This document shows positions 17,196 through 33,595 of a stretch of DNA of 49,025 nucleotides, in pieces; position 1 is the stretch's first letter, and the number at the start of each line of letters is the position of its first letter. A program made the translations under genes and the position numbers. The notes under the pieces are model-generated. The model was not told where the DNA came from. It saw only the letters and a program-made list of their open reading frames with translations, and searched no databases. The stretch is taken from contig JAJRYV010000065.1 in the NCBI GenBank assembly GCA_024275575.1, positions 1 through 49,025 on the forward strand, written 5' to 3'. Source of the stretch: a bacterium. GTDB taxonomy: Bacteria > Zhuqueibacterota > Zhuqueibacteria > Zhuqueibacterales > Geothermadaptataceae.

Positions 17196-17933
17196 TCAAT
17201 CGCGGCTCTGCAGTTTTGCCAGCAATCGCAACATCTCGAGGTAAAGCCAGACCAGGGTGATCATCAAACCGAAGCCCGCGTACCATTCCATGAATTTCGG
17301 CATGCCCTGGGCGCTGGCGTTTTCGATAAAATCGAAATCGAGCAGCAGGTTAAAGGCGGCCACGCCGATGACCACGAGACTGAATCCGATACCGAAAAGG
17401 CCGTTGCTGTGCAGCAGCGGCATACTGATACCGAAAAAACCGAGAATAATGGAAGCGAAGTAGAAAAGCGCAATTGCGCCGGTTGCGGCAATCACACCGG
17501 AGCGCAGTTTTTCTGTGACTTTAATGGTGCCGCTGCGGTAAAGAAAGAGCATGACGAACATCGTCCCGAAAGTCAACCCGACTGCCTGCAGAACGATACC
17601 GGCATACATGTGCGCATACATTGCGGAAATGCCGCCGAGGAAGAGCCCTTCGAGCACGGCATAAATTGGAGCGGAAATGGGCGCCCAGTTGGGTTTAAAA
17701 ATCGTAACCATCGCAGCGATCAATCCACCGAAGAGCCCCAGCATGAGCAGTCCGGAACCGGTATCGCCGGAAAAATAGCGATCCCAGGTAAAGGTCGCTG
17801 CGAAAAATGCCAGAAAAAGCAGAATGATGGTTTTGTTCATCGTGCCCTGGATGGTCATTACGGTCGTTTCGTCGACAGCGTGAGCGCGGGCGCCGAAGCG
17901 TTGTGAATTAAAAATGGGGTTAGAACCTCGCAT
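17196..17933 (-). CDS. Bax inhibitor-1/YccA-family integral membrane protein
   Basis: The 245-residue protein has a hydrophilic N-terminus (about 30 residues) and then about seven membrane segments. It carries family hallmarks: GLFLGGISAMYAHMYAGIVLQA, FGTMFVMLFLYRSG, GFSLVVIGVAAFNLLLDFDFIE, and a terminal WYAGFGLMITLVWLYLEMLRLL with the conserved Asp pair in LLLDFDFIE. Related bacterial proteins are pH-sensitive calcium leak channels or protease regulators; the physiological role here is unknown. AAGGAGATGACAA precedes the ATG at 17933. The gene stands alone, convergent with the TonB operon. Confidence 0.9.
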   Translation of the reverse strand: MRGSNPIFNSQRFGARAHAVDETTVMTIQGTMNKTIILLFLAFFAATFTWDRYFSGDTGSGLLMLGLFGGLIAAMVTIFKPNWAPISAPIYAVLEGLFLGGISAMYAHMYAGIVLQAVGLTFGTMFVMLFLYRSGTIKVTEKLRSGVIAATGAIALFYFASIILGFFGISMPLLHSNGLFGIGFSLVVIGVAAFNLLLDFDFIENASAQGMPKFMEWYAGFGLMITLVWLYLEMLRLLAKLQSRD

Positions 17934-18492: not shown

Positions 18493-21400
18493 ATGCCCGA
18501 CAGTCCTGTCAGCAGTGAAAAAAACGGCATTTGCGGCATCTGCCCTTACGGATGCTGGATTACCGTCACCTATAATGAAACGGGCAAAATTTCCAAAGTG
18601 CGCGCTGATGAAAATTCCCGTTTCGGCAGCATCTGCCTGCTCGGTATTCATTCCACTGAAATCATCTATAGCAAAGACCGCCTGCGATATCCGCAAAAAC
18701 GCCTGGGCAAAAAAGGGAATTATGATTTCGTCCGCATTTCGTGGGATGAAGCTTACGACCTTATCGCTGATAATTTGATCCGTATCAGGGATGAATCGGG
18801 CGCCAAAGCAAGCGGTATTTACACTGGACGCGGCAGCTTCGATTTTTCGATGAACGATGTCTTCCAACCCCGCGACGTCATCCGCCAATCCACGGCCAGC
18901 AGCCTGCTTTTCCCATTTGGATCACCCAATACGTTCGGTGTCGGTTCGCTTTGCTATGTCTCTTTCGGTATGATTGCGCCGCATACAACCCTCGGCGCTA
19001 TGTGGCTGGATATGTACACCGATATCGAAAATGCCGGAATCATCATCGTCTGGGGTGCAAATCCGGCGACAGACTCACCACCGACAAATTTCGAACGCAT
19101 CATCAAAGCGCACCAGCGCGGCGCCAAAGTCATCGTCATCGATCCGCGGCGCACAGCGACCGCGAGACAAACGCAGGCGCAGTGGATTCCCATCCGCCCC
19201 GGTACCGATGGCGCGCTGGCGTTGGGCTTGTGTAACATTCTCATCAGGGAAGAGCTGTTCGATGAAAAATTTGTCAAAAACTGGACAGGCGGGTTCGAAG
19301 ATTTCTCGCAGCACGTGCAACATTTTACCCCGCAGGTCGTGCAGGATATTTGTGACATCCCTGCCGAGACCGTCGCAATGCTTGCGCGGGAAATAGCAAC
19401 AGCAAACGGCGTGGCGCAGGTGATGTATACCGGGCTGGAATACAGCGCCGGCGGCGTGCAGGCGATTCGCGCCACCCTCGTTTTGTGGGCGATAGCCGGT
19501 CAACTCGATGTGCCTGGCGGTTTGAACTTCAATATGCCCGGGAACGAATTCCCCATCAATCGCACCGGTAATATCGCCAATCCCGATGTGCGCAATGCCA
19601 TTGGCCGCAATTTATTTCCACTCTACACAAAATACCGCGATGAGTCGCATCCACAGGCCCTGCCGCAGGCGGTTTTGTATGGCAACCCTTACTTTATTCG
19701 GGGTCTCATCGTCTTGGGTGCTTCGATTATCACTTCATGGCCGAACCCGTCATTGTGGCGAAAAACACTAAATGCCCTCGATTTTCTCGTTTGCATCGAC
19801 CGCCAATTAACCGCGGATTGTGCCTATGCCGACGTCGTTTTGCCGGCGACAACGATGTACGAGATCGAAACTTACATGACCTATGGCTCGGTTTTTAAAA
19901 TCCGCGAGCGGATGATCGAACCCGTCGGCGAGGCACGCAGCGATTTTTTTATTCAGGCGCAAATTGCTGAAAGATTGGGTTACGGTCATCTTTTTCCGCA
20001 AACCAGGGAGGAACTTTTTGCAAATGCCTTGCACGGTACGGGTTTCAGCATCGATGAAATTCGTCGGGGTGATGGAACGGCTCAGACTCCGGTGAAAATG
20101 ATGCAATACAAAAAATGGGAAAAAGGCCTGCTGCGTCCCGACGGCCGTCCCGGCTTCGATACGCCAAGCGGTGAATTTGAGATCACCTCATCCATTTTGG
20201 AAGAATACGGCTATGAAGCGTTGCCCATGTACATCGAACCGCAGGAGGGACCGCTGTCCGCTCCGGCCATCGCTGCCGATTTCCCCCTGATTTTTAACTC
20301 GGGCGCACGTGTTAAAAGCGATTTCCGCTCGCAACATCACGGCGTCCCGGCGCTGATTAAAAAGCGTCCCGACCCCACCGTTACCATCAACTGCAACGAT
20401 GCAGCCGCACGGGATATAAAAACCGGCGATCTCGTCCGTTTGAAATCAAAACGTGGCGCCGTGCTGTTACGTGCCTTTGTCACCGATGATATCGTCGCCG
20501 GAAGCATCGAGGCAAACATGGGCGGCGGCGGGCCGGTGGGGCCAAAATCCTGGCAAAACTGCAATATCAATACGCTCACCGATCTCGATCAATTCGATGC
20601 CATCTCCGGTTTCCCAGTTTATAAATCTTTACTTTGTGAAGTGGAAAAAGTCACCGACGCCGGCCAGACTGCCGCAATCGACTCAGGCGAATATGAGAGC
20701 AACATCGAAATTCAAGTGGAATCGAACAACGGCCGGTTGATCTACCTCGACAATAACGCCACGACAGCGCCCGCGCCGGAGGTCATCGCTGAAATGCAGA
20801 AAATCATCGGATTTTACGGCAATCCGTCGAGCATTTATAAATTCGGCCAGGAAGCAAAAAATGTGGTTGAAAATTCTCGCCGTAAAATTGCCCAGCTCAT
20901 CAATTCTACCTCTCGGCGCATCATTTTTCAAAGTTGCGGTTCGGAGGCGAACAATCAGGCGCTGAAAGGTGTGGCGTTCGCTGCGGCAAAATTCGGAAAA
21001 AATCATCTCATCACCTCGGTGATCGAACATCCATCGGTACGCAAAACCTGCCGCCGGCTGCAGGAAAACGGCTTTGCGGTCACTTTTCTCGGCGTCGATC
21101 GTCAGGGGCGCATCGACCCATTGGAATTAGCCGAAAAGATTACCGAAAAAACCTGCCTCGTCAGCATCATGCTGGCTAACAACGAGACCGGCACCACCCA
21201 GCCAATCAGGAAATTTGTGGAAATAACGAAAAAACGCAACGTGCTTTTTCATACCGACGCCACCCAGGCTGTGGGAAAAATCACTGTCGATGTGCAGGAA
21301 CTCGGTGTTGATTTGCTAACTTTTTCAGCACATAAATTTCATGGTCCCAAGGGTATTGGTGGATTATACGCAGCGAAAACTGTTACCCTGGAAAGCCTCA

Positions 21401-21891
21401 TCAGCGGTGGCGGCCAGGAAAAAGGCAGCCGTGCAGGTACTGAAAATGTGATGGGGATCGCCGGTTTCGGCAAAGCGGCCGAGCTTGCCGGCAAACGCCT
21501 TTTCGAAATCCACAAGCTTCGAGAGCTGCGCGACCGACTTCAAACCGGTGTGCAAAATCTCGGTGTTGAAGTGGCTGTCAATGGTGATCCGGTGAATCGT
21601 TTGCCAAATACGCTGAACGTCACATTAAAAGGATTTCGCGGCGAGTCCATCGTGCTTTTATTAGGGCAACAAGGTTTCTGTTTCTCCTCCGGTTCCGCCT
21701 GCCGTTCAGGTTCGCCGGAGCCGTCCTATGTTCTCACTGAAATGGGTTTATCCGAAGATGAAGCCCACTGCTCGCTGCGTTTTTCGCTGAGTCGCGAAAA
21801 CACGACCGAAGAAATCGACACCGTTGTCGAAGCGCTCCACAAAGTCATCAACGATTCGCGGGACATGGTGAATTTCATCGCTTGCCGTTAA
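18493..21891 (+). CDS. Fusion of a molybdopterin oxidoreductase with a NifS/IscS-type cysteine desulfurase
   Basis: One uninterrupted 1,132-codon frame. Residues 10-50 hold a [4Fe-4S] motif (C14, C17, C21, C48). Residues 50-600 form the molybdopterin-guanine-dinucleotide oxidoreductase core (IIIVWGANPATDSPP at 183-197, VIVIDPRRTATA, IPIRPGTDGALALGLC), with Cys154 in GSLC the likely Mo ligand, as in PsrA/PhsA. Residues 600-715 are the molydopterin-binding cap. After an acidic linker (720-745) comes a full group I desulfurase: YLDNNATTAP at 751, HTDATQAVGK, PLP lysine K948 in SAHKFHGPKG, and catalytic Cys1070 in SSGSACRSG. No Tat or Sec signal is present, so it is cytoplasmic. Desulfurases supply sulfur to the Mo centre of formate dehydrogenases through FdhD, so in-built sulfuration is inferred. 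The substrate is unknown, and no electron-transfer subunit lies nearby. Confidence 0.88.
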   Translation: MPDSPVSSEKNGICGICPYGCWITVTYNETGKISKVRADENSRFGSICLLGIHSTEIIYSKDRLRYPQKRLGKKGNYDFVRISWDEAYDLIADNLIRIRDESGAKASGIYTGRGSFDFSMNDVFQPRDVIRQSTASSLLFPFGSPNTFGVGSLCYVSFGMIAPHTTLGAMWLDMYTDIENAGIIIVWGANPATDSPPTNFERIIKAHQRGAKVIVIDPRRTATARQTQAQWIPIRPGTDGALALGLCNILIREELFDEKFVKNWTGGFEDFSQHVQHFTPQVVQDICDIPAETVAMLAREIATANGVAQVMYTGLEYSAGGVQAIRATLVLWAIAGQLDVPGGLNFNMPGNEFPINRTGNIANPDVRNAIGRNLFPLYTKYRDESHPQALPQAVLYGNPYFIRGLIVLGASIITSWPNPSLWRKTLNALDFLVCIDRQLTADCAYADVVLPATTMYEIETYMTYGSVFKIRERMIEPVGEARSDFFIQAQIAERLGYGHLFPQTREELFANALHGTGFSIDEIRRGDGTAQTPVKMMQYKKWEKGLLRPDGRPGFDTPSGEFEITSSILEEYGYEALPMYIEPQEGPLSAPAIAADFPLIFNSGARVKSDFRSQHHGVPALIKKRPDPTVTINCNDAAARDIKTGDLVRLKSKRGAVLLRAFVTDDIVAGSIEANMGGGGPVGPKSWQNCNINTLTDLDQFDAISGFPVYKSLLCEVEKVTDAGQTAAIDSGEYESNIEIQVESNNGRLIYLDNNATTAPAPEVIAEMQKIIGFYGNPSSIYKFGQEAKNVVENSRRKIAQLINSTSRRIIFQSCGSEANNQALKGVAFAAAKFGKNHLITSVIEHPSVRKTCRRLQENGFAVTFLGVDRQGRIDPLELAEKITEKTCLVSIMLANNETGTTQPIRKFVEITKKRNVLFHTDATQAVGKITVDVQELGVDLLTFSAHKFHGPKGIGGLYAAKTVTLESLISGGGQEKGSRAGTENVMGIAGFGKAAELAGKRLFEIHKLRELRDRLQTGVQNLGVEVAVNGDPVNRLPNTLNVTLKGFRGESIVLLLGQQGFCFSSGSACRSGSPEPSYVLTEMGLSEDEAHCSLRFSLSRENTTEEIDTVVEALHKVINDSRDMVNFIACR

Positions 21892-21927
21892 ATCAGAGGT
21901 GACTGTTGAGGCCCACAATTTTTGAAC

Positions 21928-21993
21928 ATAGCGCGAAGGCGTCCCCGTCGAACGGCACGAGCGTTACGCTCAGCGAGGATGCCTTCGCGCTAT
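21928..21993. repeat. Long palindromic element after the fusion gene
   Basis: Arms ATAGCGCGAAGGCGTCC (21928-21944) and GGATGCCTTCGCGCTAT (21977-21993) pair over 17 positions with one G-T/mismatch site. They enclose a small GAGCG/CGCTC hairpin at 21959-21971. A short TTTTA follows the right arm. It may terminate the fusion transcript or be a dispersed palindromic repeat; the G+C-rich core and internal structure favour the latter. Confidence 0.6.
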
Positions 21994-22049
21994 TTTATCG
22001 AGAATGAGGCTAAATATTGCAATCAAAGTAACAAAAACTTGTGGAAAAT

Positions 22050-23012
22050 ATGAACCTACAACATAAAAAAATAATCGCAGCAGCCCGAGACCGGGGTATT
22101 GAGGTTACTCCTCTTGAAAAATATGGAGAAAAAGAAGCCCATCTGCTGTGTTACAATGGACGCGAAGAGCTGGTTGTTGCCGGGAATTTTCTCTCGCAGT
22201 TGACACTGCAGAATCATCGGCTTTGCAACAATAAGCAGCTCACAAAAGAAATATTTGCACGGCTGAAAATCCCCTTCCCACAAAGTGTAGTTTTTAAAAA
22301 TTTTAAAAAAGAGCGTGCGGCAATCGTCAAATTTTGGCACGATGACATGATTTGCGTTTGCAAACCCCTTTGCGGCACCAAAGGTGAGGGCGTACAGATG
22401 AATATCTCCAGCCTGCAAAAACTGCAAAAATACTGGCAGCAATGGTGCAGTAAATTTGAATATTTTCTGCTCGAAGAACAGGTAGCCGGTGATGATCTGC
22501 GAATTCAGGTTATTGCCGGGAAGGTCGTGGCCGCCTGTATTCGCGAACCGGCGTTCGTCGTTGGAGATAGTATCAACTCTGTTGCCGCTTTAATCGAAAA
22601 ACGGCGGCAAATCATCAAAAAACAAAATCCGGCAAACCGATTGGATATCGATGAGCCTGTGCTGGATTTATTGCAGCGGCAAAACCTCGCATTGCAATCC
22701 GTGCCGTGCAGCGGGCAGAAAGTGCGGTTGAAATACATCGCCAATATGAGCCAGGGCGCGCGTGCCATCGACGTGACCGATAAAATCGACAACCGGTTCC
22801 ACGAATGGGTGCAAAGATTCGCCGGGGGAACCGGCATGTCACTCTTTGCCTTCGATTTCATCGCCGGAGATTGTGCCCATGCTGATCCCGGCACTGTCCG
22901 GGCGCTGGAAATCAATCCGCAACCGGAATGGTTGCATCACACATTTTCACAAGACCGGACACATGATATTGCGGGGATGATTTTGAGGTGGTTGTTTGGG
23001 GATGTGCTGTAA
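22050..23012 (+). CDS. ATP-grasp ligase related to cyanophycin synthetase/GshAB
   Basis: The 320-residue protein matches the ATP-grasp half of CphA and GshAB-type enzymes. It shows VCKPLCGTKGEGV (phosphate-binding loop), LLEEQVAGDDLRIQVIAGKVVAA, REPAFVVGDSINSV, a linker ending LDIDEPVLDLL, then VRLKYIANMSQGARAIDVTD and the metal-binding ALEINPQPEW. Such enzymes join an amino acid to a carboxylate through an acyl phosphate. The N-terminal glutamate-ligase-like domain and the C-terminal Mur-ligase domain of full cyanophycin synthetase are both absent. The substrate is therefore unknown; a peptide or amino-acid ligase is inferred. GTG 22041 is an alternative start three codons upstream, and neither start has a strong ribosome-binding site. 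A protein resembling the missing CphA N-domain is encoded at 46456-47112. Confidence 0.75.
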   Translation: MNLQHKKIIAAARDRGIEVTPLEKYGEKEAHLLCYNGREELVVAGNFLSQLTLQNHRLCNNKQLTKEIFARLKIPFPQSVVFKNFKKERAAIVKFWHDDMICVCKPLCGTKGEGVQMNISSLQKLQKYWQQWCSKFEYFLLEEQVAGDDLRIQVIAGKVVAACIREPAFVVGDSINSVAALIEKRRQIIKKQNPANRLDIDEPVLDLLQRQNLALQSVPCSGQKVRLKYIANMSQGARAIDVTDKIDNRFHEWVQRFAGGTGMSLFAFDFIAGDCAHADPGTVRALEINPQPEWLHHTFSQDRTHDIAGMILRWLFGDVL

Positions 23013-23205: not shown

Positions 23206-24489
23206 CTACAGCGTCTGCATCACCTTTTTTGCTGCGGCAATCATCGCTTCGATATCCTCTTCCGTATGCGCAAGAGAAACGAAGCAGGCTTCAAATTGCG
23301 ACGGTGCGAGGTAAATCCCGTTTTCAAGCATGGCATGAAAAAATTCACCGAATCGCGCGGTATTACTGTTTTTGGCGCCGGCATAATCATTGACCGGCGA
23401 TTCGCAGAAGAACATGCCCAACAGCGAAGCAACACGGCTCTGCTGAACCGGGATACCCGCTGCCTCTGCAGCTTCTCCGATGCCTGTTGCTAATTTTTCA
23501 CCTAAAAAATCGAGTTGTTCATAAACGCCGGCTTTTGCCAATTCATCGAGCATGGCAATGCCTGCGGCCATGGCCAGCGGATTGCCCGAAAGCGTGCCGG
23601 CCTGATAGACCGGCCCCTCCGGCGCGATATGTCCCATAATTTCTGCACGACCGCCATAGGCGCCAACCGGCATGCCGCCGCCGATGATTTTCCCCAAGCA
23701 GGTCAGATCCGGCATAACGTCAAAATGGGCCTGGGCACCGCCGAGGCCGAGACGAAAACCGGTGATCACTTCGTCAAAAATGAGCAGACTGCCGTGTTGC
23801 GTGCTCAGGCGCCGCAATCCCTGCAAGAATCCATCTTTGGGCAAGATAACGCCCATATTTGCCGCCACCGGTTCGAGAATGATCGCAGCAATTTCTCCGG
23901 GAAATTTTTCGTAAACTTCTTTTACCGCATCGAGGTCATTATAGGGCGCCGTCAGCGTTTCTTCAACCGCGCCAGCAGGCACGCCAGGTGTATCGGGCAA
24001 GCCGAAAGTGGCGATCCCTGATCCGGCTTGGGCCAGCAGCAGATCGCTGTGCCCGTGGTAGCAGCCGGCAAATTTGAGGATTTTCGTACGCCCGGTAAAT
24101 CCGCGGGCCAGCCGGATGGCCGACATCGTCGCTTCGGTACCGGAATTGACAAAACGAACTTTTTCTATCGAAGGTACGGCGTTGACAACACGACTGGCAA
24201 GCTCGATTTCCAGGCTTGTCGGCGCACCGAAGGACATGCCGTTCTCAGCCGTTTTCTGCACGGCGGAGATGATCGCCGGATGGGCGTGGCCGAGGATCAT
24301 CGGGCCCCAGGAAGCGACAAAATCGATGAATTCATTGTTATCTGCATCAAAAACACGGGCGCCTTTCGCTGATTCGATAAATGGCGGCGTGCCGCCGACA
24401 GCGCCGAATGCGCGCACCGGGCTATTCACACCTCCCGGCAGGAAATTTTGGGCTTTGGCGAATAATTGCTGGGATTTTTTTTGATTCAT
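23206..24489 (-). CDS. hemL: Glutamate-1-semialdehyde 2,1-aminomutase
   Basis: The PLP enzyme converts glutamate-1-semialdehyde to 5-aminolevulinate, the second step of the C5 haem pathway. Sequence marks include [20 protein letters not shown] near the N-terminus, [47 protein letters not shown] and the PLP-lysine motif [16 protein letters not shown]. Its length (427 residues) matches the family. I chose ATG 24489 ([10 protein letters not shown]); an upstream extension in frame would overlap nothing useful and shows no homology-like content. It is the last gene of the haem operon, 43 bases after hemH, though it acts second in the pathway. Confidence 0.95.
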
Positions 24490-24532
24490 TTTTAATCTCA
24501 CTTGAAAAAATGACAGGACATGATGATTCAGA

Positions 24533-25594
24533 TCACTGCTCTTGCATCTCTGCAAACGTTTTGCGGACAGAGTTCGAATTCAACAGTAGACCCGAACTCC
24601 ATTTTTCCAATGCATCGATATATTTTTCATGATCATTTAAACAGGGGATCATCCTGAACTCTGCGCCGCCGGCCTGTAAAAATACTTCTTTCCCTTCGAT
24701 CTCTATTTCCATCAGGGTTTCCAGGCAATCGACGGTAAATGCCGGGCAAATCACGGCCAGTTTGCGAACCCCTGATTGTGCCAACCGCACCAGTTCTGCA
24801 CCGGTTGCCGGCCCCAGCCATTTATCCCGACCGAGACGCGATTGAAAGGAGACAGAAAATTTTCCGGCTGGAAGGGCCAGTTTTTTCACCAATGCCTGTA
24901 CCGTGGAAAAAATCTGATGCCGATAGCAGGTCGCATGGGCTGGTGAGGCATTGGAACAACAGTTTTCGTTTTGCAAACAGTGCTCACCTGTGGGATCGGT
25001 TTTGATGATATGCCGTTCCGGTACGCCGTGAATACTGAAAAGCAGGTGATCGTAATCCCACTCCAGCTCATTTTTCGCTCTGGCGGCCAGTGCCTCAATA
25101 TATAAATCATCCCGATAAAACGGCGGGAAAAAGTTTAATGCAAGATTATTGTCAATCTTTGCCGCAGCCTCGCGGGTTTTGAGCTCTACCGTTTCATAAG
25201 TTGCCATCGCATAATGCGGATATTGTGGTATGGCAGCGATCTGTCGAACGCCTTTATCGTAGAGGCGGCGCAGGCCGGTTTCAATTGAGGGCATACCATA
25301 GCGCATGCCGAGTTCAACGGGGAGCGGCAGGCGGCCTTGCAGCTTTTCCCTGATTTTTTCACTGATTGCGATAAGGGGTGAGCCATCCTCACGCCAAATG
25401 CGTTTGTACGCTGCGGCGGATATTTTGGGGCGGCGCGGCAGAATAAATGCACTAACGATGAAACGTCGTAGCAAGTAGGGCAAATCGATCACACATTTAT
25501 CCATAAGAAATTCGTTGAGATAGCGCCGCACATCCGCTGTTTCAGCAGAAGCGGGTGAACCGAGATTAATGAGCAGGATACCACTTTTTTGCAC
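24533..25594 (-). CDS. hemH: Ferrochelatase with a probable internal [2Fe-2S] cysteine cluster
   Basis: The enzyme inserts Fe2+ into protoporphyrin IX, the last step of haem synthesis. It starts at GTG 25594, which has AGGAG ten bases upstream and gives [14 protein letters not shown], the usual ferrochelatase N-terminus; the ATG at 25621 lacks such a site. Motifs include [21 protein letters not shown], the catalytic-His motif [10 protein letters not shown] (His189) and KWLGP. Four cysteines (C206, C212, C213, C223 in HCLQNENCC and ATCYRHQ) resemble the internal cluster of [2Fe-2S] ferrochelatases described in Bdellovibrio-type proteins. Cluster binding is inferred. The gene sits 40 bases after hemB. 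Confidence 0.93.
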
Positions 25595-25634
25595 GTATTT
25601 ATCACTCCTGGAGCGTTGCATCTGATCAGCGTGC

Positions 25635-26624
<990 letters not shown>

Positions 26625-26647
26625 TTTGTCCTGTCTTTCTCGTTAAA

Positions 26648-28060
26648 TTATGCTGGCGATAATTTTATGTTTTTATCGTTCAACAACCCGTCCATGGATT
26701 TGACTTTTTCAGAAATTTTATAGGCCTGTTCAATACAATCACCAACCGAGATGCCACCGCGGAAATTGCCGTAAATATGCAGCCCCGGCAGTTGTGCTTC
26801 CGCCTGTTCGATGACAGCAAGTTTTAATCCGTGACCGAGCATGTATTGGGGAATCGCTTTTGGCCAGCGTTTTATTTTGGTGAAAACCGGCCGGGATATG
26901 AAACCCAGTAAAGATTGCAGCTCCTCTGTGATAATTTTTTGCAACCCGGTATCATTCTGCGCGAGCAGTTCCGGTTGTCGCATGCCACCGATAAATGCGG
27001 TAAAAGCTGCGAAACCTGAGGGCGCCCGCTGCGGGAACAGGCTCGAGTTCCAGATAGAACCAAGAATCCGGCGTTGTTCGCATTGAGGAACGAGCATACC
27101 GAAACCGTCGAGAGGGTGAGTGATTGTATCCCTCTTATAACCCTGATAAATTACGGCGACTTGCGCATAGGGGATGGAATGCAGCACAGCAGCAGCTTGC
27201 TCATTGAGATTTTCGATCATCGCGGCTGTGATATAAGCCGGTGTTGCCAATATGACCTGCCGCACTGCGATCGTTTTTCCATCTTGCCGGTGAATCGCAA
27301 ATCCATCTTCATCTTTGCTCACCGATTTGACGGCACAGCCCGTTGTCAATTCTTCTTGCAGCAATTGCGCCAGCCGGTCTGTCAGGCTTTGCATGCCTTT
27401 TTCAAAGGAAAAAAGTCCTGCTCTCGTACGATCGACTTCACCTGATTTTTTACGTTCTTTCCGCTTTCTGATTGCGCCTTTAATCAAACCGCCGTATTGT
27501 TTTTCCAACAGCCAGACGCGTTTGAAAGCATGTTTCACACTGAGTTTTTCGGGATCACCGGCGTAAACGCCGGCGACGAACGGATTGATCATATAATCGA
27601 GCGCTTCCTGCCCGATTCGCCGGCGCACAAAGTCGGCAAGGCTTTCTTCTTCCTTGTCGCGTTTCTGCGGCACAATAACATCGGCGAGCAGACGCAATTT
27701 GCCACGAAAACTCAGCAGCTTCGAGGTGAGAAATGCTGGCGGCGAAAGCGGCGCCGCACAGAGCTTGCCGTCGCGAACGATGTAGCGGTTTGCCGCAGCT
27801 TCATTGGCAAATTTCTGTTCGTTTTCCAGGCCAATATCAGCAATAAAATCAGCGAGTAATCGGGTCGAAGCCAGGGTGCTGTTCGGACCCTGATCGAATA
27901 AATAACCTTCGTTAAACCGCGTTCGGATAACACCGCCGGCTTCCTCCCGTTTTTCCAAAACACTTACCTTTTTGCCTGCCTTTTTCAAAAGCCAAGCGGT
28001 TGACAATCCTGTTACGCCGCCTCCGATTATACAAACATCAATTGCTGATGGTGTACTCAT
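26648..28060 (-). CDS. hemG: Oxygen-dependent protoporphyrinogen oxidase (HemY-type HemG)
   Basis: This FAD flavoprotein oxidises protoporphyrinogen IX to protoporphyrin IX with O2. The N-terminal FAD fold is clear (CIIGGGVTGLSTAWLLKKAG at residues 10-29, then SVLEKREEAGGVIRT). FDQGPNSTLAS, PFVAGVYAGDPEKLSVKHAF and the C-terminal LPGLHIYGNFRGGISVGDCIE are family signatures. At 470 residues it matches PPOX length. This is the aerobic HemY class (often named hemG or hemY), not the flavodoxin-like E. coli HemG. It lies 33 bases after hemN. Confidence 0.93.
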   Translation of the reverse strand: MSTPSAIDVCIIGGGVTGLSTAWLLKKAGKKVSVLEKREEAGGVIRTRFNEGYLFDQGPNSTLASTRLLADFIADIGLENEQKFANEAAANRYIVRDGKLCAAPLSPPAFLTSKLLSFRGKLRLLADVIVPQKRDKEEESLADFVRRRIGQEALDYMINPFVAGVYAGDPEKLSVKHAFKRVWLLEKQYGGLIKGAIRKRKERKKSGEVDRTRAGLFSFEKGMQSLTDRLAQLLQEELTTGCAVKSVSKDEDGFAIHRQDGKTIAVRQVILATPAYITAAMIENLNEQAAAVLHSIPYAQVAVIYQGYKRDTITHPLDGFGMLVPQCEQRRILGSIWNSSLFPQRAPSGFAAFTAFIGGMRQPELLAQNDTGLQKIITEELQSLLGFISRPVFTKIKRWPKAIPQYMLGHGLKLAVIEQAEAQLPGLHIYGNFRGGISVGDCIEQAYKISEKVKSMDGLLNDKNIKLSPA

Positions 28061-28093
28061 ATTTCATCCATAATTCACGCTATTTCCATGCGG

Positions 28094-29476
28094 CTACACC
28101 GTTCTCGAAAACCGCTGTTTTTTGTTTATTTTCAAATATTTATCAAAAGTCATAGCAATGTTGCGAATGACAAAAACTCCATTTTCTTTTATCTGAATGG
28201 AATCATCCTCCAGCGACAGCAGGCCATCTCCGGTAAACGCTTGCAATTCCTTTAACTCTCCAGCAAAATAATCATGAAAATCGATTTTAAATTTACGATT
28301 GATGGCTTTGAAATCGAGGGAAAAATCACACATGATGCGCATGATGACTTCGCGGCGCAGAAGATCATCCTCGCTCAGTTTAAAACCTTTTTCTACCGGT
28401 AGTTTACCCTGATCGAGCATTTTGTAATACTCCGGCAATGTTTTATAGCTTTGCGCATATGTTTCCGCGGTCTGGCTGATTCCGGACATGCCGTGGGCGA
28501 TAATATCGCAATCAGCATGAGTGGAATAGCCCTGAAAATTGCGATAGAGCGATTTGTTTTCCAGCGCCTGCGCCAGCTCATCTTCAGGCAGCGCAAAGTG
28601 GTCCATGCCGATAAAAACATATCCCGCTTCCGTCAGCCGTTCGATGCACATTTTCAGGATTTTCAACTTTTCTTCCGGCCCCGGCAGCGTTGCCGTATCG
28701 ATGATCTGCTGATGTTTTTTCAGCCACGGCACATGGGCATAATTAAACAATGCCAGCCGGTCCGGATGAATGGTCAACAAACGGTCGAGTGTGTCGTTAA
28801 ATGTCCACTCTGTTTGAAAGGGCAAGCCGTAAATAAAATCGAGGTTGACACTTTCAAACCCCAGTTCCCGGCCCATTGCAACGAAATTTCGTGTCAGGAT
28901 TTCGGGCTGCAGCCGGTTGATGGCTTTCTGTGTCGGTTCGTGGAAATCCTGCACGCCCATGCTCATGCGGTTGAAACCCACCTCCCGTAACGCCAGCAAA
29001 TGAGCTTTTGTCAATTTGCGGGGGTCGATTTCCACGCTGATTTCGGCGTTGTCGGCAAAAGTATAATGCTTGCGGATCACCTCGCCCAAAATACGAATCT
29101 GATCCGGCGTGAGAAATGTCGGTGTGCCGCCGCCCCAGTGCATCTGTCTGACGATGCGCTTGCCGGTATTCGCCGAGAGCAGATCGATCTCTTTGAGCAC
29201 ATACTGCAAATAATCGGCAACCTTTTTCGCATTGCGCGCCACCATCATCGTGCAGCCACAATAATAACACAATTGATGGCAAAAAGGAATATGAAAATAC
29301 AATGAGAGCGCCCGCTCTCGATAAACCGGGTTGGCCAGTTGATTTTTAAAAATATCAATAGAAAAATCAGCAGAGAATTGCGGCGCTGTCGGATAGCTGG
29401 TATATCGCGGCCCGGGTTTATCATATTTTTTCAGCAGGTCGATGTCGACGCTGAGTTTTTTCGTTTGCGTGATCAT
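28094..29476 (-). CDS. hemN: Oxygen-independent coproporphyrinogen III oxidase (radical SAM)
   Basis: The 460-residue enzyme decarboxylates coproporphyrinogen III to protoporphyrinogen IX with two SAM radicals and no O2. The HemN cluster signature is intact: C66, C70, C73 and C75 in FCHQLCYYCGC. GPRYTSYPTAP at the N-terminus, QMHWGGGTPTFL and SMGVQDFHEPTQKAINR are true-HemN features; HemW proteins lack the first. The ATG overlaps the hemE stop by one base (TAATG), giving tight translational coupling. The next gene encodes an O2-dependent enzyme, so the operon mixes both oxygen regimes. Confidence 0.95.
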   Translation of the reverse strand: MITQTKKLSVDIDLLKKYDKPGPRYTSYPTAPQFSADFSIDIFKNQLANPVYRERALSLYFHIPFCHQLCYYCGCTMMVARNAKKVADYLQYVLKEIDLLSANTGKRIVRQMHWGGGTPTFLTPDQIRILGEVIRKHYTFADNAEISVEIDPRKLTKAHLLALREVGFNRMSMGVQDFHEPTQKAINRLQPEILTRNFVAMGRELGFESVNLDFIYGLPFQTEWTFNDTLDRLLTIHPDRLALFNYAHVPWLKKHQQIIDTATLPGPEEKLKILKMCIERLTEAGYVFIGMDHFALPEDELAQALENKSLYRNFQGYSTHADCDIIAHGMSGISQTAETYAQSYKTLPEYYKMLDQGKLPVEKGFKLSEDDLLRREVIMRIMCDFSLDFKAINRKFKIDFHDYFAGELKELQAFTGDGLLSLEDDSIQIKENGVFVIRNIAMTFDKYLKINKKQRFSRTV

Positions 29477-30552
29477 TATGCCGGTGTCCCGTTTTGGAGA
29501 AGGATTGCCTCATCCGCTGCGTGGAATCGCGGGCTGTAATTTCGTACGGTTTCGACGAGCAGTTTAACATTTTCCACCGGTGTTTGCGGTGTAATGCCAT
29601 GTCCCAGATTAAAAACATGAGCGTGTCCGTTACCATAAGCATTGATGACTTTTTGCACTTCAACTTCAAGGATTTCCGGGCCGGCATAGAGCGCGGCAGG
29701 GTCAAGATTGCCCTGCAGTGCAACCTGATTACCGAGTTTTTCACGCACAGCGGCCAAGCTAGTTTGCCAGTCGATGCCCAGTGCATGGGCGCCGGTCGCG
29801 GCCAGTTCTTGTAAACTATGGTTGGCGCCGCGGGCAAACAGGATCAGCGGAATACCGCTATCTTTCAGATTATCTACAATTTTTGTCAGATAGGGCAACG
29901 AGAAGGCACGAAACTGTTCTTCAGTGAGAAATCCGCCCCAGCTATCGAAAATCTGCACCGCGCTCGCGCCGGCTTCGATTTGCTGCAATAGAAATGATGT
30001 CACAGCCCGGGTTAATTTATCGAGCAACTGATGCATGGCGCGTGGTTCATTGAACAAAAATGATTTTGCATATTGAAAAGTTTTGCTGCCGCGGCCTTCG
30101 AGCATGTAAGCGGCAAGGGTCCACGGCGCGCCGGCAAAGCCGATAACCGGTACACGATTATCGAGCGTTGTGCGTGTCAGACGAATGGCATCGCAGGTGG
30201 CTTGCAGCAGTTTGGAATCCTGTGGTATGGGCAATTTTTCCACAGCTTCGACAGAGCGCAGCGGTTTTTCAAAAACCGGCCCTTGCCCTTCAAAAACATC
30301 CATTTCCAAACCCATCGCATGGGGGATGACGAGGATGTCGGAAAAGATAATCGCCGCATCAACACCGATGATATCGACCGGCTGCACTGTAACTTCCGCA
30401 GCGAGTTCCGGAGTGTAAACCATTTCGAGAAAACTGGCTTTTTCACGCACGGCACGGTATTCCGGCAGATAGCGCCCCGCCTGCCGCATGATCCAAACCG
30501 GGGTGCGCGGCACAGCCTGCCGGTTTAATGCTTTTATTAATAAATCATTCAT
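29476..30552 (-). CDS. hemE: Uroporphyrinogen decarboxylase
   Basis: The enzyme removes four carboxyl groups from uroporphyrinogen III to give coproporphyrinogen III. The N-terminal signature PVWIMRQAGRYLPEYRAVR is present, followed by DAAIIFSDILVIPHAMG, GFAGAPWTLAAYMLEG, QIFDSWGGFL and a C-terminal HVFNLGHGI. At 358 residues it matches the family. Its start codon overlaps the end of hemD by 8 bases, and its stop overlaps the hemN start. Confidence 0.97.
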   Translation of the reverse strand: MNDLLIKALNRQAVPRTPVWIMRQAGRYLPEYRAVREKASFLEMVYTPELAAEVTVQPVDIIGVDAAIIFSDILVIPHAMGLEMDVFEGQGPVFEKPLRSVEAVEKLPIPQDSKLLQATCDAIRLTRTTLDNRVPVIGFAGAPWTLAAYMLEGRGSKTFQYAKSFLFNEPRAMHQLLDKLTRAVTSFLLQQIEAGASAVQIFDSWGGFLTEEQFRAFSLPYLTKIVDNLKDSGIPLILFARGANHSLQELAATGAHALGIDWQTSLAAVREKLGNQVALQGNLDPAALYAGPEILEVEVQKVINAYGNGHAHVFNLGHGITPQTPVENVKLLVETVRNYSPRFHAADEAILLQNGTPA

Positions 30553-31369
30553 AATCGAGACTCCAGTCTGATTCTAAATTGTTCTTTTCAAAAAAGTGCA
30601 GTGCGTTTTGTGCCTGAAAATGGGTGATGATTTTTTTCAATATCGCTGCCGTCGTCGGCTGCCCGGCAGTTATAATTTTTGCAAAACCGTCCCGGCGCAG
30701 CGCCCCTTCCGTCGTTGCACCGATTGCCGCACAAAATATGGATTTCACCAAACCTTCACAACTTGCGGGAACAACCCGACTGAAAGCGGCGACCGCCGAT
30801 GGGCTATAGAAAATCAATAAATCCGGGATGACCTGCAGCAGCAGCAGAATTGCTTTTGCGTCAACGGCGTTCACCGGCTCATAAATTTCGAGGCGCTCAT
30901 AAGACAACTGCGCAGCCGCAAGTTGTGCTTCCATCGTTGCATCAGCAGCGCGGCTGACCGGATGTATGATTGCATCATTTTTTGCGGAATTTTCGATGAT
31001 GCCGGCTGCAAATTCGCGGCTGTCTTTTGCTTTCGCATTGCAGCATTTGCCGTTGAAATGACAGCTGAGCAAGCGTGTTGTTTTATCGTTGATGCCAAAG
31101 CAAATAACATCCACCGGCAGGTTGTAATTCAAAGCATTCACCTGGGTAAAAAATTCTCCCACGGCAACCTGGCTGGTAAAAATCAGCCTGCTTCCCGGAG
31201 TAATTTTTTGCAAGCGTTCAGGGTTCAGAGGGATGGAGTGAAAACGGATACACGGCAGGTAGATCATTTCCGCGCCTTCTTTTTGCAGCAGGCCGTGCAG
31301 GTCATCGCTGGTTTGCAGCGGGCGTGTGAGAACGACACGGCGTCCGCAAAGTATCCTGGTATCAACCAT
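30545..31369 (-). CDS. hemD: Uroporphyrinogen-III synthase
   Basis: The enzyme cyclises hydroxymethylbilane with inversion of ring D. HemD is poorly conserved, but the pattern fits: GRRVVLTRPLQTSDDLHGLL at the start, SRLIFTSQVAVGEFF, YEPVNAVDAKAILLLL, LLIFYSPSAVAAFSRV, CAAIGATTEGALRRDGF and QPTTAAILKKI. The position between hemC and hemE supports the call. I chose ATG 31369, which overlaps the hemC end by 8 bases; the GTG at 31402 would add 11 residues without recognisable function. Cysteine content is higher than usual (CCNAKAK), with no known role. Confidence 0.88.
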   Translation of the reverse strand: MVDTRILCGRRVVLTRPLQTSDDLHGLLQKEGAEMIYLPCIRFHSIPLNPERLQKITPGSRLIFTSQVAVGEFFTQVNALNYNLPVDVICFGINDKTTRLLSCHFNGKCCNAKAKDSREFAAGIIENSAKNDAIIHPVSRAADATMEAQLAAAQLSYERLEIYEPVNAVDAKAILLLLQVIPDLLIFYSPSAVAAFSRVVPASCEGLVKSIFCAAIGATTEGALRRDGFAKIITAGQPTTAAILKKIITHFQAQNALHFFEKNNLESDWSLDYE

Positions 31370-32294
31370 GGACCAAAATTGTTGAAAGAATTCTCGCAGC
31401 ACCGGCTTCGAGCAGCTTTGCCGTTACCTCATTTGCAGCCAATTCATATTCAGCAGCTTTCCGCTGCGCGCGCGCCTCGACGAATTCACCATTTCCCAGG
31501 CTGATGACACGCCCGTGCAAACACAGTATATCATTTTTCACCTCACCAAAAACCGCGACGGGAACGGCGCAGCCACCGCCAAGTTTATTGAGCACCATGC
31601 GCTCAGCCGTAGCTGCGGCAAAGGTGCGAAAATCGTTCAATTTTTGAATGGTTTCGATGGTGTCGGCATCTTCGGCGCGTGTCTGAATGCCCAGCACACC
31701 CTGCGCCGGCGCCGGCAGCATCACCTCTTTGGGCCAATAGCAGGTGATTTTATCAGCCAAATCGAGGCGCTTCAAACCCGCAGCCGCGAGAATTGTGGCA
31801 TCGTATTCTCCTTCATCGACCTTGCGCATGCGTGTATCGACATTGCCGCGAATATCTTTGATGATGCAATAAGGAAATTTTGTCTTCAGTTGCGCGGCCC
31901 GGCGTGCACTGCTGCTGCCGATGACTGTGCCGGCGGAAATATCGTCGATAGATTTAATTTTTTGTGAATAGAGCACATCGCCGGCATCGACACGTGGTGG
32001 CATGGCGGCGATGCACAAACCAGGTGTATCCTCAGTGGGCAAATCTTTCAAACTATGTACCGCGACATCGATTTCTTTTTGCAGCAACGCATTTTCAATT
32101 TCTTTGACAAAAACGCCTTTGCCGGGCATCAAAGTGAGCGGCGTATCCAGCACCTTGTCGCCCTGTGTGTGTATGATTTTTAACTCGCATTTCAAATGCG
32201 GGTTGTTTTTTTCAACTGCTGCCAGCATTTGTTTTGATTGGGCCAGCGCCAGCTTGCTGCCCCGCGATCCAAAGGTGAGTCTCTTCCTGTCCAT
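31362..32294 (-). CDS. hemC: Porphobilinogen deaminase (hydroxymethylbilane synthase)
   Basis: The enzyme links four porphobilinogen units into hydroxymethylbilane. The N-terminus FGSRGSKLALAQSKQ, the substrate motifs VAVHSLKDLPT and GSSSARRAAQL, RGNVDTRMRKVDEGEYDA, APAQGVLGIQ and the dipyrromethane-carrying Cys242 (LGGGCAVPVA) are all present. The length of 310 residues is normal. It lies 14 bases after hemA and overlaps hemD. Confidence 0.97.
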   Translation of the reverse strand: MDRKRLTFGSRGSKLALAQSKQMLAAVEKNNPHLKCELKIIHTQGDKVLDTPLTLMPGKGVFVKEIENALLQKEIDVAVHSLKDLPTEDTPGLCIAAMPPRVDAGDVLYSQKIKSIDDISAGTVIGSSSARRAAQLKTKFPYCIIKDIRGNVDTRMRKVDEGEYDATILAAAGLKRLDLADKITCYWPKEVMLPAPAQGVLGIQTRAEDADTIETIQKLNDFRTFAAATAERMVLNKLGGGCAVPVAVFGEVKNDILCLHGRVISLGNGEFVEARAQRKAAEYELAANEVTAKLLEAGAARILSTILVHG

Positions 32295-32308
32295 CGCTAA
32301 CTTTCGTT

Positions 32309-33595
32309 TTAGTTTTGTACCCGAATATCAAATAAATCGCCAACAGACTGCATGAGCCCGGCAGCCTGTCCGGCGGAGGCTTTTTCCCGCAGTACCCGTG
32401 TCGGTTCACGCAAAATGCGACTCGTCAATTTATTGATTAATTTTTCCAGAATTTGCTGATCGTGCTGGTCGAGATTTTCGAAGCGGCGCAGCGCCCAGTT
32501 CAGTTCGGTTTCCCCGGCTGCAGTAACTTTTTGCCGCAATGCCGAAATGACGCCACTCACCTGGCGAATCCGCTGGTTCTCGTAGTATTCATCCATCTCT
32601 TCGTGCAGAATTTCAGCGGCGCGGGCGAGATCATCGGAACTCAGGCGTTCATCGCGATAGCCGTTGGATTTGATCTCAGTGAAATCGATGAGTTTGACAT
32701 CGGCCAAATCCAGCACATCGGTATCGATGTCGCGTGGCATGGCGATATCGATGAGATGGAGCGCGTGTCCGGATTTGCGGTTTACCTGTGAGAGCAGGGT
32801 TTTATCGATAAATTTCACCTCGCTACCGTAGGCGGAAAAAACGATATCAGCCGTATACAAAGCTTGGTTCAGGCTGGAAAACGGCAAAACAACGGCGCCG
32901 TATTTCGAAAATTTTTCCTGGCGGCTTTCCGCATTACGGCTGAAAACCTGAATGTTTTTAATGCCTTTGTTTTTCATGTGGCTGGCGGCTAACTGCGCCA
33001 TCTTGCCCGTTCCGATAATGATTGCATTGATTTCATGATCGAACTTTGATGAGGCAGTTAAAAAATCGATCGCCAGACCACTTAAAGAAATTTGAATTTG
33101 CCCGAGGCGAGTTTCGGTGCGAACTCGTTTGCCGGCTTTTAGCGCTGATTCAAAAATTGCTCCGAGGTGACTCGTCACCAGTTGATTCTGAACCGCAACC
33201 TGATACGCATTTTTAACCTGCCCCTGAATTTGTGTTTCACCGATTGCCAACGAATTGAGACCGGCCGTGGTTTGGAACAGATGCTGAATAACCTCGTTGT
33301 CGTTAAAAATTTTCGCGTAAAATTTAAAGTTTTCAACCGGAAGTCCGCTGTATTCAGCGACACGCTCAAACAGTGCAGTATAAACCTGCGCCGCAATTTC
33401 CGGATAATTCCCGGAAATCGAAAAGTAAAACTCAGTTCGATTGCAAGTCGAAAGCACGATTAATTCTGTGACAGACGGGCAGCCCGATGTCACTTTGCGA
33501 ACGAATTCAATGGCGTCATCTTCAGAAAAAGAGAGTTTTTCCAGAATAAACATAGGTGTATTTTGCAGATGAAATGAGATCAGTCCGAATTCCAC
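32309..33595 (-). CDS. hemA: Glutamyl-tRNA reductase
   Basis: The enzyme reduces glutamyl-tRNA(Glu) with NADPH to glutamate-1-semialdehyde, the committed and usually regulated step. The catalytic Cys51 lies in LSTCNRTEFY. The NADPH domain shows IIIGTGKMAQLAASHMKNKG, and the C-terminal dimerisation helix covers about residues 330-425. It starts at GTG 33595, with AAAGGA six bases upstream. It is the first gene of the operon hemACDENGBHL, so its promoter in the A/T-rich region just upstream drives the whole pathway. Confidence 0.95.
   Translation of the reverse strand: MEFGLISFHLQNTPMFILEKLSFSEDDAIEFVRKVTSGCPSVTELIVLSTCNRTEFYFSISGNYPEIAAQVYTALFERVAEYSGLPVENFKFYAKIFNDNEVIQHLFQTTAGLNSLAIGETQIQGQVKNAYQVAVQNQLVTSHLGAIFESALKAGKRVRTETRLGQIQISLSGLAIDFLTASSKFDHEINAIIIGTGKMAQLAASHMKNKGIKNIQVFSRNAESRQEKFSKYGAVVLPFSSLNQALYTADIVFSAYGSEVKFIDKTLLSQVNRKSGHALHLIDIAMPRDIDTDVLDLADVKLIDFTEIKSNGYRDERLSSDDLARAAEILHEEMDEYYENQRIRQVSGVISALRQKVTAAGETELNWALRRFENLDQHDQQILEKLINKLTSRILREPTRVLREKASAGQAAGLMQSVGDLFDIRVQN

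Follow-up and report, generated by a model that had tools for sequence, protein, structure and literature searches.

The window analysed here is a 49,025-nucleotide stretch (contig JAJRYV010000065.1) from a bacterium of the family Geothermadaptataceae (Zhuqueibacterota). At 18493-21891 (+) it encodes a protein of 1,132 amino acids in which a metallopterin module is fused to a cysteine desulfurase. This fusion is a member of the metallopterin-dependent ergothioneine synthase (MES) family, an architecture known since 2022 from Caldithrix abyssi (Beliaeva & Seebeck 2022, PMC9516567). The new point is that the genus of the window keeps the fusion without detectable EgtD, the methyltransferase that converts histidine to trimethylhistidine, and without a detectable OpuAC-type transporter. 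Our preferred reading is that the protein probably makes ergothioneine from trimethylhistidine, with sulfur relayed from Cys1070 to Cys1131 and on to the metal.

The fusion protein and its correspondence with the Caldithrix abyssi enzyme

The assignment draws on the open frame, on Pfam and NCBIfam models, on 80 fused homologous loci and on an AlphaFold2 model. Translated directly, the frame runs through 1,132 codons without a stop, and Pfam recognises PF00384 (Molybdopterin, residues 63-494, 1.5e-40), PF01568 (Molydop_binding, 602-712, 1.6e-18) and PF00266 (Aminotran_5, 750-1110, 3.9e-76). Translation and Pfam thus bear out an earlier reading made from the letters alone (the sequence-only reading), which had proposed a molybdenum half joined in a single frame to a full desulfurase. 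Each of the residues it named, C14, C17, C21, C48, C154, K948 and C1070, was found at the position it gave. Its list did not contain Cys1131, an invariant residue at the C-terminus.

The N-terminal module (18493-20646, +; approximately residues 1-718) combines PF00384 with PF01568, the pair that marks the dimethyl sulfoxide reductase superfamily with its bis-molybdopterin guanine dinucleotide (bis-MGD) cofactor, and carries the [4Fe-4S] cysteines C14, C17, C21 and C48 as well as C154. It is acetylene-hydratase-like both by sequence, where its closest solved relative is the tungsten acetylene hydratase 2e7z (1.3e-64), and by fold, where acetylene hydratase heads the Foldseek matches among solved structures (target-normalised TM 0.85). 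The iron-sulfur and metal-ligand cysteines are shared with that enzyme, and by alignment with its ligand cysteine Cys154 (codon 18952-18954, +) is the predicted molybdenum or tungsten ligand. Identity with acetylene hydratase itself was rejected. Acetylene hydratase has an Asp after its second iron-sulfur Cys, which we take to be the catalytic Asp13, whereas in the sequence alignment with 2e7z the window protein has Pro18 at this place, so acetylene hydration is not expected; acetylene hydratase also has no desulfurase module.

The C-terminal module (20740-21888, +; residues 750-1132) is a group I cysteine desulfurase of the NifS/IscS type, with the pyridoxal 5'-phosphate (PLP) lysine K948 and catalytic Cys1070 in an SSGSAC loop (SSGSACRSGS from 1065). 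The top NCBIfam model for the whole protein is NifS TIGR03402 (750-1127, 6.9e-140, under its equivalog cut-off), and Foldseek matches this half to Nfs1, IscS and NifS at a target-normalised TM of about 0.9. Stand-alone NifS/IscS desulfurases have the group I fold, the SSGSAC loop and the PLP lysine in common with it, at about 41-47% identity, but they carry no metallopterin module and, in all 21 examined, lack the C-terminal Cys.

The AlphaFold2 model, built on a 55-sequence alignment, has a mean predicted local distance difference test score (pLDDT) of 89 and a predicted TM-score of 0.87. Its confidence is low in two places, the linker (721-750) and the last residues around C1131 (pLDDT below 50 at 1129-1132). 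The interdomain linker (20647-20739, +; approximately residues 719-749) is acidic in the window protein, as the sequence-only reading had remarked, but this is not a meaningful trait, as linkers vary in length among homologues and many are basic. Low confidence around Cys1131 (codon 21883-21885, +) is as expected for a mobile arm, which this tail probably forms. A dimeric enzyme is expected. The architecture, the residues and the fold of the window protein are established in this analysis.

The C. abyssi enzyme (CaMES) combines an acetylene-hydratase-like N-terminal module with a functional C-terminal cysteine desulfurase, whose sulfur reaches the metal through a persulfide relay and is then transferred onto the imidazole ring of trimethylhistidine (PMC9516567). 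Recombinant CaMES in E. coli converted trimethylhistidine to ergothioneine, and production of ergothioneine from trimethylhistidine and cysteine was demonstrated for four other homologues (PMC9516567). The changes K952A, C1074S, C1135S and C153S abolished the product, while C1097S halved it (PMC9516567). K952A and C153S failed to complement one another, showing that transfer is intrachain and that both modules are needed on one chain; K952A retained sulfur exchange between ergothioneine and trimethylhistidine (PMC9516567). The discoverers of MES state that no other metallopterin enzyme is known to form C-S bonds (PMC9516567).

The window protein corresponds to CaMES in domain order, with bis-MGD and group I desulfurase modules on one chain, and closely in length (1132 against 1136 residues). 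In both proteins the molybdenum half is acetylene-hydratase-like and the C-terminal half NifS/IscS-like. The iron-sulfur cysteines C14, C17, C21 and C48 are identical, and the metal ligand C153 of CaMES becomes C154. The spacing from the PLP lysine to the catalytic Cys is 122 in both (K952/C1074 and K948/C1070); 23 residues then lead to the next conserved Cys (C1097 in CaMES, C1093 here) and another 38 to the relay Cys (C1135 and C1131), after which a single residue ends each chain. Every residue class on which MES depends, that is the iron-sulfur and metal-ligand cysteines, the PLP lysine, the catalytic Cys and the relay Cys, is therefore present.

Through this residue-level correspondence we infer from CaMES the relay, the intramolecular transfer and the formation of a C-S bond. 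The desulfurase would load the sulfur of L-cysteine as a persulfide on Cys1070, and the mobile Cys1131 would carry it to the bis-MGD molybdenum or tungsten centre coordinated by Cys154. From the metal the sulfur would enter a C-H bond of an imidazole ring. This is most likely C2 of trimethylhistidine (hercynine), and the product would then be ergothioneine, formed with no need for O2. We hold it very likely that the protein performs an MES-type sulfur relay with C-S bond formation. That trimethylhistidine is its physiological substrate is the least certain step, in which our confidence is moderate, because a genus without detectable EgtD needs an outside source or another route to it.

Distribution and conservation of the fusion

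Searched against 84,980 bacterial and archaeal species, the molybdenum half found 148 relatives, the best 80 of which were kept as loci. The desulfurase follows in the same frame in 79 of them, and the 80th is truncated by a contig end. These loci, mostly from metagenome bins, span more than 10 phyla. Carriers occur in Calditrichota, KSB1, Nitrospirota, Planctomycetota (anammox bacteria), Desulfobacterota-type lineages, Pseudomonadota, Actinomycetota, Gemmatimonadota, Chloroflexota, Acidobacteriota, Spirochaetota and Bacteroidota, together with one methanosarcinal archaeon. The architecture is thus widespread, and since it was published in 2022 (PMC9516567) the novelty that the sequence-only reading had implied for it does not hold. 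The check that it had suggested, whether the fusion recurs in related genomes, gave a positive answer. G001, one of two genus mates (G001 and G002; the window's own genome is G000), encodes the fusion as one open frame at 78% identity, and other members of the family and class are about 56% identical, aligned through both halves. The same fusion in G001 and in 79 of 80 independent loci rules out an assembly artefact.

Among the best 80 matches there was no stand-alone relative of the molybdenum half that could be a recent donor, and the next molybdenum relatives within the phylum are about 31% identical. No plasmid record covered 80% of the query. The identities of the two halves correlate pairwise (r = 0.83 over 2,628 pairs, a descriptive value as the sequences are related), and this pattern would fit one old fusion inherited as a unit.

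Residue conservation was counted over 73 full-length homologues. C14, C17, C21, C48, C154, K948, C1070 and C1131 are invariant in all 73, and C1093 is present in 70, which fits the mild phenotype of CaMES C1097S. The C-terminal Cys is absent from all 21 stand-alone desulfurases of related genomes (one seeming case was a read-through past a stop), and it is therefore a diagnostic mark of the fusions. In the tree the window protein falls inside a supported clade, the remaining members of which belong to EgtD-bearing genomes.

EgtD is found above the Pfam cut-off (PF10017) in 69 of the 80 fusion genomes, or 69 of 78 outside the window's genus, and at 45 of the 80 loci it is encoded within about 6 kb of the fusion. 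Within the phylum, 6/9 carriers have it against 10/73 non-carriers (Fisher p = 0.0013, uncorrected for phylogeny). An OpuAC-type substrate-binding/permease gene is present in all six EgtD-positive phylum carriers and lies near EgtD in five. This association of EgtD and OpuAC across carriers identifies the family as MES. At L175 838-3193 and L150 (G019 contig 61), EgtD stands beside an ATP-binding cassette (ABC) ATPase and a fused OpuAC/EgtU-type substrate-binding/permease protein, which suggests that a quaternary-amine transporter is tied to ergothioneine in the KSB1 relatives. EgtB, considered as another possible route, was not found above cut-off in nine genomes, where the only matches are weak and resemble the related sulfatase-modifying domain.

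A genus without detectable EgtD

The phylum's three EgtD-less carriers are exactly the genus of the window, namely its own genome (97.7% complete), G001 (98%, about 20 contigs) and G002 (67%). Several points count against the preferred reading. PF10017 matched nothing in the window's own genome or in G002 and gave a sub-threshold match (9.5e-4) in G001. The EgtD protein of a relative, used as query at E up to 1, had no match in the three genomes, and the OpuAC-type transporter was found in none of them. Moreover, the genus pair departs jointly at 15 positions that are conserved elsewhere; in 15 control pairs the number is 0-8. Finally, the comparison with CaMES rests on residue numbers published in PMC9516567 and not on its sequence.

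EgtD in the same genome was the criterion of discovery in the 2022 paper, and is not a property of the enzyme. That survey covered about 55 genomes and started from genomes with histidine methyltransferases (PMC9516567), so EgtD-less carriers would go unlisted. In PMC9516567, the supplementary tables aside, we found no discussion of carriers without the methyltransferase. Nine other fusion genomes have no EgtD above cut-off (L068, L070, L073, L087, L086, L118, L122, L126 and L133). Some are small or incomplete bins, but two of them, L073 with 6.0 Mb and L087 with 8.0 Mb, are large, and in these the enzyme might likewise be uncoupled.

The fusion is under strong purifying selection in the genus. 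Between the window protein and that of G001 the non-synonymous rate (dN) is 0.15 and the synonymous rate (dS) about 2.1, with synonymous sites saturated, giving a dN/dS of about 0.07, and both modules are constrained. This shows an active role, which could have become uncoupled from ergothioneine. The relay and the metal chemistry would then be the same and the genus enzyme would sulfurise a different heterocycle, for which a histidine derivative or a peptide from an adjacent ATP-grasp ligase is a candidate. We regard this explanation as unlikely overall, although it is the strongest competitor. It would account for EgtD and OpuAC not being found in 3/3 genus genomes, against 69/78 and 6/6 elsewhere, and for the shared changes at positions otherwise conserved in the MES family, such as N121 (elsewhere C), T134 (elsewhere S), S152, P387 and T460 (elsewhere S). 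The excess of lineage-specific substitutions is weakened as proof of a new substrate, since single genus sequences lie within the family range of departures.

The ligase gene (22041-23012, +), a further difference from CaMES, is the next gene downstream of the fusion and, by NCBIfam and PDB matches, resembles the ATP-grasp part of cyanophycin synthetase and of GshAB. The phylum search found a close homologue (68%) in G001 only, likewise adjoining the fusion, so that the gene lies directly downstream in both genomes where this is visible; it is a possible partner of the fusion enzyme. However, the linkage is known within one genus, where synteny is shared, and no neighbours beyond the genus are conserved across the phylum's fusion loci. 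A palindromic repeat lies between the two genes (21925-21996; 35-nucleotide arms, 77% complementary). It belongs to a family dispersed over about 20 places in the window's own genome (at least 17 besides this one), with related palindromes in G001; co-transcription is therefore doubtful, and need not be assumed. Every residue known to matter for CaMES is intact, and trimethylhistidine could be imported by another transporter. It is only tentatively that we consider an enzyme uncoupled from ergothioneine, which would turn a different heterocycle, possibly a histidine derivative made by the ATP-grasp ligase, into a thio-metabolite not yet described and give the family its second substrate. The genus enzyme most likely acts on trimethylhistidine that is scavenged or otherwise made.

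The sequence-only reading had attributed to the enzyme a sulfur donor of its own, either to hand persulfide to the metal site or, the purpose it put first, to install or restore a sulfido ligand. Handing persulfide to the metal agrees with what was shown for CaMES, whereas maturation is not what CaMES does, as its sulfur is renewed at each turnover and ends up on the substrate (PMC9516567). A self-maturing molybdoenzyme, with a desulfurase that supplies or mends the catalytic sulfido ligand of an otherwise ordinary molybdenum redox domain, is very improbable. Sulfido ligands do exist in formate dehydrogenase and Nap-type enzymes, and the eukaryotic molybdenum cofactor sulfurase (ABA3/MOCOS) and FdhD-IscS likewise pass desulfurase persulfide sulfur to a molybdenum centre. 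There, however, sulfuration of the cofactor via MOSC or FdhD happens once, as maturation. CaMES spends the sulfur on its substrate at each turnover and requires its desulfurase for turnover (PMC9516567). Its K952A variant still exchanges sulfur, so the molybdenum site is not awaiting maturation (PMC9516567). No FdhD family member was detected in the window's own genome. This could favour an enzyme that matures itself, but it also removes FdhD as a partner and leaves the FdhD analogy of the sequence-only reading unneeded. MoeA is present in the genome, a point in favour of the MES reading. The tight association of the family with EgtD and the lack of an adjacent electron-transfer subunit speak against self-maturation as well.

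The same two points weigh on a persulfide or polysulfide reductase releasing cysteine sulfur as H2S at the molybdenum site, an option we judge even less credible. The molybdenum half does resemble the polysulfide/thiosulfate reductases PsrA and PhsA in sequence and fold, but acetylene hydratase, which is not a redox enzyme, is closer to it. In agreement with the sequence-only reading, no electron-transfer subunit adjoins the fusion in the window, and no membrane subunit does either; the neighbours are a Bax-inhibitor family protein upstream (17196-17933, -; Pfam/NCBIfam) and the ATP-grasp ligase. A relict gene decaying after loss of EgtD and the transporter from the genus is just as improbable, because the frame is open, the catalytic residues are all intact and both halves are constrained at 78% identity, and the broken copies known from relatives lie outside the genus in genomes that retain EgtD. 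These copies, with an in-frame TAG (G003:C52:39593-42973) and with a frame break (G043, L037 7864-11246), reflect sequencing error or decay.

Other genes and significance

Downstream in the window, 23206-33595 (-) holds an apparently complete haem biosynthesis operon, with GlutR, porphobilinogen deaminase, HemD, UroD, a HemN-like radical S-adenosylmethionine protein, ALAD, ferrochelatase, a protoporphyrinogen-oxidase-like amine oxidase and a class III aminotransferase (HemL-like). Elsewhere in the class, L028 409-2616 (-) encodes a cysteine desulfurase fused in frame to an apparent SelD (selenophosphate synthetase), the second half being assigned by eye; in many relatives desulfurase matches lie in frames of 730-810 amino acids, a length like that of L028.

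In summary, the range of MES now extends beyond the approximately 55 genomes of the 2022 report (PMC9516567), and in one lineage strong selection maintains the enzyme even though the methyltransferase that usually supplies its substrate is not detected. If ergothioneine is still made, this lineage must scavenge trimethylhistidine or make it by a new route. If it is not, a new sulfur-containing metabolite awaits discovery.

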